From an uncultured Erythrobacter sp. (lineage in GTDB: Bacteria; Pseudomonadota; Alphaproteobacteria; Sphingomonadales; Sphingomonadaceae), in contig CANNCZ010000002.1 of NCBI GenBank assembly GCA_947503275.1, positions 1,074,733 through 1,138,732 of the forward strand: a stretch of DNA of 64,000 nt, given 5' to 3'. Below, piece after piece: positions 9,820 to 34,956 of this stretch (positions are counted from its first letter, which is position 1; each line of letters begins with the position of its first letter). The notes under the pieces are model-generated. The model was not told the origin of the DNA. It worked only from the letters and a program-made list of their open reading frames with translations, and searched no databases. The position numbers and the translations under genes were made by a program.

Positions 9820-10051
9820 TTGACTTCCCAAAATAGCTGTTATTTCATAGGGGCTTGTTTGCCCTTGGGTGGAGCTTTGCCTAGGCTCGCGAGGAATTTG
9901 CGTACCAAACACCTTGTTGGAGCCGACGGTACAAGGATCGCGTCCTCTCGAATTCGGGGCAGGGCACTGACACCGCAATCGCCGCGTACCTGCCGAAGAA
10001 CTGCTTGATCTGATCGGCAACAAACCGATCCTTTCAACCATTCGGCAATAG

Positions 10052-27630: not shown

Positions 27631-30600
27631 ATGCGCCGCCTTGCCCCCCGCTTTACCGCGACCCTTCTCGCAGGCTCGATGCTTGCGATGCCCAGCCTCG
27701 CTCTCGCACAGGATGACGAGGATTGGGATGTCGAAGCGCCGCGCGGGGCGGTGATTGAGCAGGTGCCGATCCAGACGGACGAGGCCACATGGATGGATGT
27801 TGATGTCTCGCCCGATGGACAGACGCTCGCTTTCACAGTGCTGGGTGATATCTACACTATGCCGATCACGGGCGGCATGCCAGATCGGATCGCCGAAGGG
27901 CTAAGCTGGGAAGTTCAGCCGCGCTTTTCGCCAGATGGTAGCCGCATCGCGTTCACCTCTGATCGGGGTGGCGGCGACAACATTTGGGTGATGAACAGCG
28001 ATGGTTCGGACATGCGTCAGGTCACTGATGAAAGCTTCCGCTTGCTCAATCAGCCGAGCTGGTCGCCGGACGGACGCTTTATCATCGCCAAAAAGCACTT
28101 CACCACCCAGCGTTCCGCCGGAACGGGTGAGATATGGATGTATCACGTCTCTGGCGGCGGCGGCGTTGCGATTGTTGAGCGACCCAATGAGCAGCAGCAA
28201 AAAGAGCTGGGCGAGCCAATTTTCTCTCCTGATGGGGAGGCGATATATTACACCCGCAACACGACCGGTGGAAACACCTTCATCTATGCGCAAGACAGCC
28301 AAAGCGGCATCTTTGCAATCGAGCGCCGCGATCTGGAGACCGGCGAAGTTACGACGGCTGTCGATGGGTATGGCGGAGCAGTGCGCCCGACCCCTTCGCC
28401 CGATGGCGCGGAGATCGCCTTTGTCCGGCGCGACACGGATACCAGCCAGCTGTGGGTGAAGGATATCGCCAGCGGACGCGAGCGGATGATTTACGATGCG
28501 CTCGACTTGGACCTGCAAGAGACCTGGGCGGTGTACGGCGTCTATCCGAATATGGATTGGACGCCCGACAGCCAATCGATTGTGTTTTGGGCTGGCGGAA
28601 AGCTCAACCGGATTGACCGCGACGGGTCGAATATGGCCGTGATCCCCTTCACCATTGATGACACACGCGGCGTGGCCGATGCACCGCACCCAGACATTGA
28701 GGTCGCACCCGACCGCTTCACTACCAACATGCCGCGTTTCGCGCAATTGTCGCCTGATGGCAGCAGCGTTGTGTTTGAAAGCCTTGGGCGGCTCCACACA
28801 AAATCCGCACGCGGCCGGGATGGCGCGCGTCCTGTTACCGGTGCCAGCGATGTGGTCGAAGCCTTCCCCGCATTCAGCCGCGATGGATCCATGCTCGCGT
28901 ATGTCGAATGGAGCGATGCAACTTTGGGCCGGATCATCGTTGCCGATGCGAACGGAGCCAATCCTCGCGCGGTCACGTCCGAGCCCGGCCACTACGCCAA
29001 TCTCGCTTTCTCTCCCGATGGATCAAGCATCGTGTTTGAGAAGCGTTCGGGCGGCTATCTGACCTCGTCGGATTATTCGGAAAACACCGGCATTTACAGC
29101 GTGCCTGCATCAGGCGGCACGGCGGAACGGATCAGCCGTTCCGGCTCCAACCCGCAATTCGGCGCGGATGGCGACCGTCTGTTCATGACCGCCAGTGAAG
29201 GTGGCGATTTCGCTCTGGTCTCCACCAATCTCGATGGAGAGGATCGGCGGGTCCATGTCACAGGCGATCTGGCCAATGATTTCCGCGTATCACCCGATGG
29301 TCAAAACGTGGCTTTCCGCCAGAATTACGAAGTATTTGTGATGCCTCTGATCCCCGGTGGTCAGGCGGTTAGCGTCACCGAAAGCGGCGGTTCGCTACCA
29401 GTCACACGGGTTAGCGAAGGCGGCGCGGATTACATCGGCTGGGCGCGCGGCGGCAACACCGTGTTCTGGTCTATCGGTGCGGAATTGCGCAGCGCACAGG
29501 TCGCTGATTTCTTCAGCAATGGCCCGGCTGGCGATGACGAGGATGACAGCTACAGCCCGCCCGAAAATGGCATCTCGTTGGCTATGACAGTGACGGCGGA
29601 TAAGCCCACTGGGACCACGGTAATCACCGGCGCGCGTATCCTAACCATGGCCAATGGCTTGGAGGCCAATGACCCCGGTGCAATCGATAATGGCGTGATC
29701 GTTATCGAAGGCGATCGGATCGCCGCCATCGGTGCGGCGGGCGACGTAACCGTCCCGGCAGGCGCAACCATGATCGATGCCAATGGCCGCACAATCATGC
29801 CCGGCCTAGTCGATGCGCACGCCCACGGACCGCAGGGGGTTGGCGACTTCATCCCTCAACAAAACTGGCGGATGGTTCAGGACCTGGCGATGGGCGTGAC
29901 CACAATCCACGATCCGTCCAACCGCGCGAGCCAAATCTTTGCCGCCGCCGAACGCCAGCAAGCAGGACTGCTCCTCGCCCCGCGCATCTTCTCCACCGGA
30001 GAGATCATCTACGGCGCGAAAGCACCCAGCGTCTATGCCCGGATCGACAGCTATGACGATGCGCTTGCGCATGTCCGCCGTATCCGTGCTCAGGGCGGCA
30101 TTTCGGTCAAGAACTACAATCAACCCCGCCGCGAACAACGCCAGATGGTTGCACGTGCAGCGGCGGCTGAAAATATGATGGTCGTGGCTGAGGGCGGGTC
30201 GCTCTTTGGGATGGATATGAACCTGATCGCCGATGGCAATTCGACGATTGAGCACAATGTGCCGGGCGATGTTCTGTACGAAGATGTGCTGCAATTCTTC
30301 AGCCAGTCGAACTCCAACTACACGCCGACTTTGAACGTCACCTATGGTGGGCTAGCGGGTGATCCCTACTGGCGTCAGGCGATGAATGTTTGGGAGCACC
30401 CCCTGATGGTGCACACGCCGCCGCGCTTGCTTTTGGCGGAAACCGGACGTCGGACGACCGCGCCGGATTGGGCGTTTGTCGATGACAATGCCGCGCGAGA
30501 GGCGCGCAAATTGGCGCAGCGCGGGGTGGAGGTTTCTATCGGTGCGCATGGTCAGCAAGCGGGTGTCGATGCGCATTGGGAGCTGTGGAGTTTTGCACGC

Positions 30601-30915
30601 GGCGGCATGAGTGCGGCAGAGGCCCTGAGAGCAGGCACAATCGCGCCTGCACGCTCGCTGGGCATGGCCGACGATGTCGGCAGCCTGGAGGTGGGCAAAC
30701 TCGCTGACCTCGTGATCCTCAGCGCCGATCCCAGTGAGGACATCAGCAATTCGGATGACATCGTGCAGGTCATGCTAGGCGGGCGGTTGTACGATTCCGT
30801 AACCATGAATGAGGTTGCGACCGGTACGTCAACACGCCGCGCCTATTGGTGGGAGGGCACCGGAGCGGGCGGCTCTGAAACCGCCACGCATGCGGCAGCC
30901 GCGCACCAGGATTAA
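27631..30915 (+). CDS. Secreted amidohydrolase with N-terminal TolB-like/PD40 beta-propeller
   Basis: Repeated SPDG blades ([27 protein letters not shown]...) then [16 protein letters not shown] and [14 protein letters not shown]. Confidence 0.88.
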   Translation: [1094 protein letters not shown]

Positions 30916-30921
30916 GGCAGG

Positions 30922-31653
30922 CTAATCCGGCTCCGCTTCCATCAGCTTGCGCAGGTCTTTTAGAGCCTTTGCGCGAAGTTGATGGACGCGCGGGACGCTG
31001 ACTTCGATAATTTCTGCGATTTCGGTCAGGTTCAATTCTTCGACAAAGAACAGTTGCAGAACCAGTTTCTGCCGATCTTGCAACTGCGTCATCGCAGCGA
31101 TCAGTTGGTCGCGATCTTCTTGTCCGCACAACGCCTCAAACGGGTCAGGATCATCGCTGGCAAAGGCGGTGTTGCTGTCGTCATATTCGTCATTGATGGA
31201 TGAAAGGGTGACGGAGGAGCTTTCGATCTCGACCAGCTCGCCATCGCTCACGCCCATCGCCTCTGCGATCTGAGCGCGAGAGGGGTCTTGACCGGTTTGC
31301 GCGCGCAGTGCCTCCACCGCTTTGGTGTAGCGTGCGCGCTTCTTTCGCGCGGTGCGGGTGTCGTTCATTTGCCGCCGCAAAAGGTCGATCATGGCCCCGC
31401 GTGCGCGGATCTTGGCATAGGCGGCAAAGCCATCTTCGGTCGGGCCGCTATGACGCTGAGCGCATTCGGTAAGGGCAACAATGCCCGCTTGGATCAGGTC
31501 CTCGACCTCTAATCCGGCATGGCCTGAACCGTAAATGTGCCAGGCCGCGCGGTGGATCATGGGAAGGAACCGGCGCACGCGATCTTCCACCTCCTCACGC
31601 GAGGCAGTGCTGTAAGGCTGAGCGCCTGCAAAACTGGCTGTGTCGTGCTTCAT
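30922..31653 (-). CDS. fliA: Flagellar RNA polymerase sigma factor FliA
   Basis: Sigma-70 regions 2-4: DLIQAGIVALTECAQRHS, FAAYAKIRARGAMIDLLRRQ, LQLFFVEELNLTEIAEIIEVSVPRVHQLRAKALKDLR. Confidence 0.87.
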   Translation of the reverse strand: MKHDTASFAGAQPYSTASREEVEDRVRRFLPMIHRAAWHIYGSGHAGLEVEDLIQAGIVALTECAQRHSGPTEDGFAAYAKIRARGAMIDLLRRQMNDTRTARKKRARYTKAVEALRAQTGQDPSRAQIAEAMGVSDGELVEIESSSVTLSSINDEYDDSNTAFASDDPDPFEALCGQEDRDQLIAAMTQLQDRQKLVLQLFFVEELNLTEIAEIIEVSVPRVHQLRAKALKDLRKLMEAEPD

Positions 31654-32606
31654 GATGCAGGAATATGCATGGGCAACGGTTCAGGTGGCGCGCCAGGCGA
31701 CCCACGGGTTTCTACGGATTGAGGCGCGGCGAGTTGCTGCGGCTCTGAGCCGATTACACCGATGACGCTGACCGGCTGTGTCGCGGGCAATTCATTGATT
31801 GATAGCACAAGACAGCGGCTTGCTCTTTGGCTCAAAAGGCCAGTCAGAGCACGGCGTGCCGGCGGTTGAACGATCAGTGCAATCGGCCCTTTGGCCTCGT
31901 CGATGTGAGCACCGATGCGTTCAACGATCATGCTGCCGCAATCGGGCTCAATGATCGGTTGACCGGTACCCGGATCGACCATTCCGCCTAAGATCGCTCC
32001 CTCAAGCGCAGCGTCGAGTGTCACCACTTTCAGATGGTCACCCTGCTCGCAGATACGCGCGATCAGGCGGGCGCCCATATCTGCGCGCACGGCATCAATG
32101 ACCATATCAAAGTCTTGTGTGGTCTGAAGCGATAGTGCGAGACTGGTAAGCAATGGCTGTGGGTGTGACAGCCCAATCCCGTCCGCGATCAAAGCGCGGA
32201 ATATGCGGGTCAATGCGCCGAGCGACAGCGGGTCGGGATGGATCGCTTCGATCAAAGCCGGTGCGCGATCCTTGAGGTCATCAACTAGCGCGCGCACTTC
32301 TTCTGGGCCGAGCAATTGGTGGCTCTGCGCGAGCAATTCCTGATTGGCGTGAGTGGCGATAACGGTGCTCGGATCGACGGTCAGAAAGCCTTCCGACACG
32401 GCATGATCACGCGCGGATGGGTCGATCCACAGGGCGGGACAGTCAAAGCTGGGATCGCGCGTTGCCTCTCCATTTACGCCATGGCCGGGCCGGACATCGC
32501 CGGTATCAATCGCGAGCAGCCGTGATGGCTTGGCGGTCCCTTCCGCGATAGGCAGACCGCCCAGCAGCACGCGATACTCATTGGCGCTCGCATCGAGCGC
32601 AACAAA
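31650..32606 (-). pseudogene. flhA: FlhA C-terminal cytoplasmic domain only (N-terminal membrane domain absent)
   Basis: LDASANEYRVLLGGLPIAEG...RLLAIDTGD...ALWIDPSARDHAVSEGFLTVDPSTVIATH..QLLGPEEVRALVDDLKDRAPALIEAIHPDPLSLGALTRIFRALIADG matches the FlhA cytoplasmic region. The ORF from 32606 to 32768 is antisense to flhB, with no FPF (TM) domain. Confidence 0.75.
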
Positions 32607-33104
32607 CGGCTCAAGATGAGCATGCAGGACATGAAAGACGAGGGCAAGCAGACCGAAGGATCGCCCGAGGTCAAAATGGCCCGGCGTCAGCGTCAGCGCG
32701 ATCTCGCACGCGGTGGCGTGAGCAAAGCGATGCAAGACGCGCAGTTCGTCGTGGTCAACCCGATGCATTTTGCGGTCGCTCTAAAATACGATCCTGACCT
32801 TGCGCCCGCTCCCATAGTGCTGGCCAAGGGACGCGGGGAAACCGCCATGGCGATGCGCGAATTGGCGAGCGAACAGGACTTGCCGGTGCTGCATTATCCT
32901 CAACTCGCCCGTGCGCTCTATTTCACGACCCGCGCGAACCAGATGGTGCGCGAGGAATTGTATGTTGCCATCGCGTCACTGGTTGCATTCGTCCTATCAT
33001 TGAAGCGCGGCGACCGGCCCATTCGGCCGCAAGTTGATGTGCCGTCAGACCTCCACTTCGATGCCGATGGCAAGCCCGAACGCCCCGTCAAATCCCCCTC
33101 TTAA
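32595..33104 (+). pseudogene. flhB: FlhB C-terminal cytoplasmic domain only (N-terminal membrane domain absent)
   Basis: ERNKRLKMSMQDMKDEGKQTEGSPEVKMARRQRQRDLARGGVSKAMQDAQFVVVNPMHFAVALKYDPDLAPAPIVLAKG matches FlhB from the linker through the cleavage region. ATG 32616 is an internal Met. Confidence 0.75.
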
Positions 33105-33134: not shown

Positions 33135-34562
33135 ATGGATAATCCTGGCTCCTCAATCATCTCCGCCTTTGGTGCAGGCAGCGGCGTGAACTTTGTTCAG
33201 CTGGCTGACGACCTGTCAGAGGCGACGTTCTCCTTTCAACGCGGCAATCTGGAAACGCGCAATGAGACGCTGGAGGCGCGGATTTCCTCCGCCTCGTTGC
33301 TGCGCAACGCTCTGACGGGACTCTCCAGTGCGCTAGGCGACAGGATTCGAACGGGTGATCTCGCTCCGCGTGCGACCATCGGCAATCCGTCCGTGGTGAG
33401 CGTCTCGACCACACCTGGGCTTACGCCAACAGGCAGCTATTCGCTCGAAGTGTCGCAATTGGCTGAAAGCCAAACGCTAGTTTCGCAAAGCTTCGGCGCG
33501 AGTAGCGATTTGGTGGGCGAAGGCAATCTGTTTGTCCGTTTCGGCACAGTGGATGGCGCGAATTTCACCGAAGACACAGGGCAAACCGGGCTCAACATTG
33601 AAGTCACAGCCGACGATACGCTGGCAAGTCTGGCGAACAAGATCACTGCGGCCAGCGATGGCGGGCTGAGCGCCTATGTCGCCAATGGCACGGACGGTGC
33701 GCAGCTGGTGATTAAGGGGCGCGAGGGTGCGGTGAACGGATTTACTCTAGAAGGGCAAAGCAGCGCTTTGCTGCCGCTCGCGAACCCCGGCGATCTGTCT
33801 TACCTTTCATGGAATCCCGGCAGCGATGCTGTCGAATTGCGCACTACCGCGCAGGATGCCTTGTTTGAGCTAGACACTGTTCAACTCAGCAGCACCAGCA
33901 ACACCGTCACTGGCTTGCCCGAGGGGCTTACCTTTGATCTGAAAGCTACCAATATCGGCGACCCGACAGAGATTTCTTTCGAGAATGATGCAGGCGCGAT
34001 CACCAGCCTGATGACCGATTTCGTCGCCGCGCTGAATGATGTGACGCAGTTGCTAGGTGAAGAAGCGGCCAATGGCGGTATTCTGGCCAATGATCCGGGC
34101 GCACGCGAATTGCGGCGCGATTTGGGGCGTCTGACCAATCAAGTCATGATGCCCACCGCTGGCGAAGGCGAACCGTCCACTCTGGCGGATCTTGGCGTGT
34201 CGATCACGCGCGATGGTGCGTTTGAATTCGATGCTGCAAGGCTTGATGCGACTTTGTCGGAACAGCCCGATGCGACCGCAGCGATCTTCACCACTGGAGC
34301 ATTTGGCCTGTTCGCGACGATTGATAATCTGGCACGTGACAACACGCTTAGCTCTGATCCCGGATCGCTGGGCGGTTCGGTGGAGCGCTATGAAAATCAG
34401 ATCGAAAACAATGATGAGCGGCTGGTTACTATCGCTGAACAGCAGGAAAATCTCCGATCGCGCCTGACGCGTGAACTGATCGCGGCGGAGCAGCGGATTT
34501 CATCCTCGCAATCGACCTTGGATTTCCTGCGCCTGCAATTCAATTCGTCCAACGATTCATAA
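33135..34562 (+). CDS. fliD: Flagellar filament capping protein FliD
   Basis: N-term ISAFGAGSGVNFVQLADDLSEA, SYSLEVSQLAESQTLVSQSF, C-term coiled coil LTRELIAAEQRISSSQSTLDFLRLQFN. Confidence 0.83.
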   Translation: MDNPGSSIISAFGAGSGVNFVQLADDLSEATFSFQRGNLETRNETLEARISSASLLRNALTGLSSALGDRIRTGDLAPRATIGNPSVVSVSTTPGLTPTGSYSLEVSQLAESQTLVSQSFGASSDLVGEGNLFVRFGTVDGANFTEDTGQTGLNIEVTADDTLASLANKITAASDGGLSAYVANGTDGAQLVIKGREGAVNGFTLEGQSSALLPLANPGDLSYLSWNPGSDAVELRTTAQDALFELDTVQLSSTSNTVTGLPEGLTFDLKATNIGDPTEISFENDAGAITSLMTDFVAALNDVTQLLGEEAANGGILANDPGARELRRDLGRLTNQVMMPTAGEGEPSTLADLGVSITRDGAFEFDAARLDATLSEQPDATAAIFTTGAFGLFATIDNLARDNTLSSDPGSLGGSVERYENQIENNDERLVTIAEQQENLRSRLTRELIAAEQRISSSQSTLDFLRLQFNSSNDS

Positions 34563-34578: not shown

Positions 34579-34956
34579 GTGATGCACAAATTGTTGCCAC
34601 AACCTGCCGACGCGTATCGCCGGGTCGATCTCGACGCGCGGATTGAAGCATCGTCGGGTTCGGATCTGACACTGATCTGTCTCGAAGAGGCTGTGGCGGC
34701 TTTGAACCAAGCTTTGCTGGCTCTTGAGCGCAATCCGACGAAAGCACCAGCGGAGCCGCTATCGCGCGCCAATGGCATCGCGGTTTGGCTGGCGCGCAGC
34801 GTTGCGTCTGAGAACCCGCTGGCGACGGCGATGCAGCAGTTTTACGGCGGGCTCGCATCGACCATCACGCGAAATATGGTCCGCGCGTCTGTGGCCGAAC
34901 TGGAGCAGGCTCGCGATGACTTTGGCGACTTCCTTGCCGCAGCCAAGGCCGTTTAG
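34579..34956 (+). CDS. fliS: Flagellar export chaperone FliS
   Basis: Small helical protein immediately downstream of fliD; AYRRVDLDARIEASSGSDLTLICLEEAVAALNQAL. Confidence 0.72.
   Translation: MMHKLLPQPADAYRRVDLDARIEASSGSDLTLICLEEAVAALNQALLALERNPTKAPAEPLSRANGIAVWLARSVASENPLATAMQQFYGGLASTITRNMVRASVAELEQARDDFGDFLAAAKAV

Follow-up and report, generated by a model that had tools for sequence, protein, structure and literature searches.

Stand-alone paralogues of the FlhB cytoplasmic domain, known as the FlhX or YlqH type, accompany a working flagellum; a literature search returned no paper using the name FlhX. The remnant of flhB described below resembles them in carrying FlhB-C without membrane helices and with an NPxH-type motif, but its genome has no full-length FlhB and should, as argued below, give no flagellum. 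A second point of comparison is programmed excision or phase variation by site-specific recombination, as in Hin-type switching and the excision of nif elements in heterocysts. Here the likeness lies in fixed sites, in the base-precise loss of a large segment and in repeated occurrence, whereas no recombinase, conserved recognition sequence or circle junction was found in the reading frames and genomes that we searched. The presence and absence of flagellar genes has been tabulated across the family Erythrobacteraceae (PMC7660246), and the loss of flagellar clusters in non-motile bacteria, this family included, is similar in that a lineage lacks the cluster while its relatives keep it. Where that survey treats flagellar genes it gives presence or absence only; in the case reported here, the same two breakpoints appear at no fewer than five places in the tree. 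A literature search found no description of this deletion.

Remnants of flhA and flhB in an Erythrobacter genome

The window, a 64,000-nucleotide stretch of DNA, comes from an uncultured Erythrobacter genome of 3.41 Mb in 3 contigs with a completeness rating of 100% (G000); its nearest named relatives place it within Erythrobacter in a wide sense. Its flagellar features are collected in Table 1. On the minus strand, homology to FlhA covers Pfam FHIPEP positions 381/383-654 of 657, roughly the last two fifths of the profile, and ends at 32597; on the plus strand, homology to FlhB covers Bac_export_2 positions 201/205-335 of 335 and starts at 32596. The two remnants thus lie head-to-head with an overlap of two nucleotides, AG. 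Some 57 codons of the open reading frame at 31650-32768 are flhB read in antisense, and FlhA sequence proper therefore stops at 32597. The start of fliA overlaps the stop of flhA. No notable repeats surround the junction in the window.

Table 1. Coordinates of flagellar features at the window locus, and of the junctions in two sister species with a different partner for flhA
Feature	Coordinates	Strand	Basis
fliA (sigma-28 type), intact	30922..31653	-	Pfam Sigma70_r2/r3/r4; 97.9% identity to G122
flhA remnant, codons ~419 to end	31650..32597	-	PF00771 383-654; collinear with G122 to 32597
deletion junction, crossover within AG	32596..32597	.	34,075 bp absent relative to G122
flhB remnant, codons ~227 to end, FlhB-C complete with NPMH	32598..33104	+	PF01312 205-335; solved FlhB-C matches
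fliD, intact	33135..34562	+	FliD_N, FliD_C
fliS, intact	34579..34956	+	Pfam FliS
flhA-fliD junction, G129 (L092)	10748		
flhA-fliD junction, G130 (L093)	9219		

An initial annotation of the window, made from the sequence alone, had described flhA and flhB as both cut down to C-terminal domains, joined head-to-head with homologies abutting within 32590-32606 and with neither N-terminal membrane domain present. The profile matches confirm this arrangement and place the meeting point at 32596-32597. The two fragments differ in completeness. The FlhB fragment is a complete FlhB-C, its NPxH autocleavage motif (NPMH) aligning with that of solved FlhB-C structures. The FlhA fragment, compared with solved FlhA-C chains, begins at about Salmonella residue 413, inside subdomain D1 of the cytoplasmic domain; the solved chains have about 55-110 extra residues ahead of the matched part. 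By these alignments it is an incomplete FlhA-C that lacks the start of the domain. The earliest in-frame ATG of the flhB remnant is at 32616, and no well-placed start codon was seen for the flhA remnant in the window.

Profile searches of the whole window genome found FlhA only as positions 381-654 of 657 and FlhB only as positions 201-335 of 335; the N-terminal transmembrane domain of FlhA and the transmembrane domain of FlhB were absent, and there was no second FlhA, second FlhB, FliP or flagellin anywhere in the genome. The cell should therefore be aflagellate, and for the flagellum itself the proposal of a dead locus was right.

In intact relatives the divergent genes flhA and flhB bound the flagellar cluster on either side, with about 32-34 kb between them. 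The same holds for G122 (record L038), which is the nearest intact relative found for the window. The alignment of the window to G122 is unbroken to 32597 and resumes at 32596 past a 34,075-bp gap. The flanks are collinear at about 93% identity, and 50-bp bins beside the junction show 88-98%. The segment missing relative to G122 includes fliR, fliQ, fliP, fliM/N, the export ATPase, fliF, flagellin, motA/motB and the rod and hook genes, together with genes for a methyltransferase, a HAD-like protein and a diguanylate cyclase. Everything at the window locus is explained, on this alignment, by one deletion of the whole flagellar cluster. The ancestor had the layout typical of the genus, in which fliA-flhA on one strand is separated by about 34 kb of flagellar genes from flhB-fliD-fliS on the opposite strand; a single deletion running from about flhA codon 419 to about flhB codon 227 removed the genes for the export gate, ATPase, M-ring, motor, hook and flagellin, and the outcome was an aflagellate cell with two gene stumps head-to-head. 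The initial annotation had proposed one deletion across a divergent flhA/flhB junction, or an inversion plus deletion. The single deletion is borne out by the collinear flanks, and at a greater scale than had been proposed, but the two genes had not been neighbours, and with flhA and flhB at opposite ends of the cluster in intact relatives no inversion is needed.

Over the region, identity between the window and G122 is a mosaic of 82-98%, evidently a sign of frequent recombination. Between window positions 10000 and 64000 the edges of this mosaic are sharp; in the compared G122 stretches nothing corresponds to 1-10 kb or to 45-53 kb. Beside the flagellar remnant, at 27631-30915, lies a gene whose 1094-aa product combines PD40 beta-propeller repeats with an amidohydrolase domain; this gene adjoins fliA in G122 too.

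Recurrence of the junction across the genus

We compared 114 genomes of the genus, one per species. Loss of the flagellum is common among them, with FlhA absent from 33 of the 114. The unexpected fact, as read from the aligned DNA, is recurrence in other lineages at one pair of bonds, to the nucleotide. The same two fragments stand head-to-head in six further genomes (G020, G077, G084, G085, G090 and G092), and the crossover is identical in all seven, flhA ..TCGAG followed by flhB CGC.., with G084 differing by point changes. The proposed pair of sites is 5'-TCGA^GCGA in flhA, read against the gene, and 5'-CA^GCG in flhB. In most intact species AGCG is common to the two parental ends, but in G122, the sister of the window genome, this is reduced to AG. 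FliP and flagellin had no match in any of the seven deletion genomes, of which G084 and G085 are only about 70% complete. Misassembly is an unlikely source of the junction, since it is identical in six other separately assembled genomes and several of the deletion genomes are contiguous assemblies of 2-40 contigs.

The distribution of the junction was compared with three trees. The species tree from rpoB and rpoC, in which five of the seven deletion genomes could be tested, requires four changes, all forced by well-supported branches. Six changes are required both by the FlhA-C protein tree and by a DNA tree of fliA plus flhA-C (60 rows), with at least five forced in each. The approximately unbiased (AU) test rejects a single clade of all seven deletion genomes (p=6e-46) and even the union of just four from one subclade (p=2e-7), so single descent is rejected for the flanks. 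The nearest relative is intact for four of the seven: the window genome and G122 (93.4% identity), G090 and E. donghaensis (93.3%), G092 and E. ramosus (91.3%), and G077 and E. oryzae (89.0%). G084 groups with G092 and E. ramosus, and G020 and G085 may share one common event. As judged from the trees, the junction is present at five or more separate spots, in seven species.

Species-typical flanks reach right up to the junction in the deletion genomes. In four-way comparisons of deletion genomes with intact relatives there was no excess of deletion-linked sites, even within 15-60 nt of the junction, and over about 47 kb G090 is mostly 85-95% identical to its intact sister, the junction coinciding with no tract edge. 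Introgression on a tract of normal size was discarded on these grounds, the flanks matching the sister species to the junction and carrying no deletion-linked sites. Regain of the cluster at the junction by the intact lineages was also rejected, as intact pairs show no step in third-position identity at flhA codon 418 or flhB codon 225.

Other breaks and the state of the fragments

In two sister species, G129 and G130, the loss took in flhB and fliD as well as the same cluster. Alignment with intact G123 puts the flhA break of this pair at TTTCGA^GCGA, where flhA now meets the final codons of fliD, adjacent to fliS, within DNA of 80-95% identity and with no recent-transfer tract. The flhA bond fits the main junction as well, while the partner differs, which suggests that the flhA position is itself prone to breakage. 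In G129 an ATG lies at the junction after TTGAGG and could serve as a start for the flhA fragment. Where other genera of the family have partial flhA genes, the breakpoints lie elsewhere. A G436 fragment starting at profile position 377 was excluded as the same break, having 28% identity to Erythrobacter FlhA and belonging to a different FlhA lineage. Two further genomes show losses of other kinds: G116 retains flhA from codon 462, and G022 keeps flhB only from codon 280 on. In G116 an apparent transposase-coding sequence, read by eye, lies directly past the break at codon 462 (L094, 10251). Six genomes (G004, G123, G125, G129, G130 and G132) have extra FHIPEP genes in which matches to profile positions 1-388 and 459-656 share a single frame on either side of a divergent middle. 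Since FliP is also present and flagellin absent in G129 and G130, the extra genes look as if they belong to non-flagellar type III secretion systems of Erythrobacter.

The fragments in the deletion genomes are open across the conserved homology, and their dN/dS of 0.03-0.18 is like that of intact pairs. Where a row carries a single stop mark, it falls at the divergent gene end, and such marks are seen in intact genomes too. The window fragments have no internal stops and dN/dS of 0.097 and 0.025 against G122. On the window branch the flhA fragment has 6 nonsynonymous and 16 synonymous changes, equal to the 6 and 20 of intact G122, and for recent deletions such counts say nothing about constraint. 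The frame damage and relaxed selection of a decayed pseudogene were not seen in the window fragments, where the deletion may be too recent to show decay. The flhA fragment of G129 and G130 has 5/32 and 12/35 nonsynonymous/synonymous changes (17 against 67 in total), which argues for constraint on it since the deletion, or for exchange with intact alleles. The initial annotation had offered two stand-alone soluble domains as one outcome. The open frames and low dN/dS are in keeping with that, but the FlhA fragment is missing the first part of its domain and lacks a well-placed start codon, and for these reasons the window stumps are probably remnants, looking well kept because the deletion would be recent.

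Competing readings of the repeated junction

The best reading of the repeated junction, to which we give about an even chance, is recurrent excision at a fixed pair of sites. The deletion would arise repeatedly by specific breakage and joining or by site-specific recombination, not by random loss, and non-motile cells would then be favoured. For this reading speak the crossover at the same nucleotide, the separate spots in the tree, the intact nearest relatives and the lack of a deletion-linked haplotype, as do the second use of the flhA bond in G129 and G130, the different breakpoints in other genera and the improbability of chance microhomology. The same crossover in separate events, as expected of site-specific recombination, is found in seven genomes with at least five changes, the separateness resting on the trees. 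Against it, no conserved recognition sequence was found: codon entropy is ordinary at both sites and intact species differ there. Extended homology between the breakpoints was rejected too, the identity of the two ends being ordinary for the region. Ordinary conservation, together with the lack of longer similarity between the ends, argues against a classical recombinase site. Nor is a recombinase family represented among the ten unassigned open reading frames of the segment that G122 retains, and a search of the 114 genomes for the reciprocal junction gave only two hits with three mismatches, taken as chance, and thus no junction of an excised circle. It is possible, though less likely than not, that an unrecognised site-specific excision system, or a guided nuclease, operates in the genus and takes out the whole flagellar cluster by cutting at fixed bonds in flhA and flhB. 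A further point against fixed-site excision is the low dN/dS between deletion genomes that possibly share one event, which is easier to understand if an old allele goes on exchanging its flanks with intact alleles.

The main rival, a serious though tentative possibility, is built on such exchange. One ancient deletion would have been kept through speciation as a trans-species polymorphism of motile and non-motile cells, while within each species recombination with intact alleles exchanged the flanks as far as the junction, giving them their present species-specific look, and kept flhA-C and flhB-C looking functional. This would give an identical junction with no special enzyme and fits the open frames and low dN/dS of all the deletion genomes, and the mosaic between the window genome and G122 indicates that recombination is frequent. 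Yet no deletion-linked sites remain even at 15-60 nt or less from the junction, the identity of G090 to its intact sister stays even at about 90-93% and shows no tract edge, and the return of the flhA bond with a different partner in G129 and G130 is left unexplained. Spread of the deletion between species on very short DNA, by gene transfer agent or transformation, is improbable. Such pieces would pair across the gap, with mismatches corrected to the recipient and only the gap copied, so that the junction is transferred and the recipient flanks stay, as the identical crossover and absent haplotype would require; but flanks of different clades are only about 60-82% identical beside the junction, which should block pairing, and no footprint whatever is left. 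Selection on the stumps as stand-alone proteins, soluble FlhA-C and FlhB-C acting with FliA, FliD and FliS, could in principle pick the same deletion through its boundaries. Low dN/dS on deletion branches is in its favour, most clearly in the flhA fragment of G129 and G130, where no recent-transfer tract is seen. We consider it very improbable all the same, as the first part of the domain is missing from the FlhA fragment, the window offers only poor start codons and selection acting on proteins has no need of the same nucleotide. Least credible of all is that ordinary microhomology-mediated deletions struck one place by chance. The ends do share AG or AGCG, and flagellar loss is common in the genus, but in G066 flhA and flhB by themselves are linked by 14,204 exact repeat pairs of at least 4 bp, 4,436 of them longer than 4 bp, and five strikes on one pair are not believable unless the events were far fewer than the trees indicate; a literature search on short-patch illegitimate recombination yielded nothing on point.

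The usual view of flagellar loss is one of random decay. In this genus, however, one and the same 34-kb amputation, at the same two bonds, appears at five or more places with no homology to explain it. Either a precise deletion mechanism has gone unrecognised, or a deletion allele has been common to species for far longer than is expected of bacterial alleles. An excision system, if it exists, would switch off motility by acting on the cluster as a whole, and would do so time after time in different species. Both the recurrent-excision and the shared-allele readings would change how parallel gene loss is inferred from genomes.
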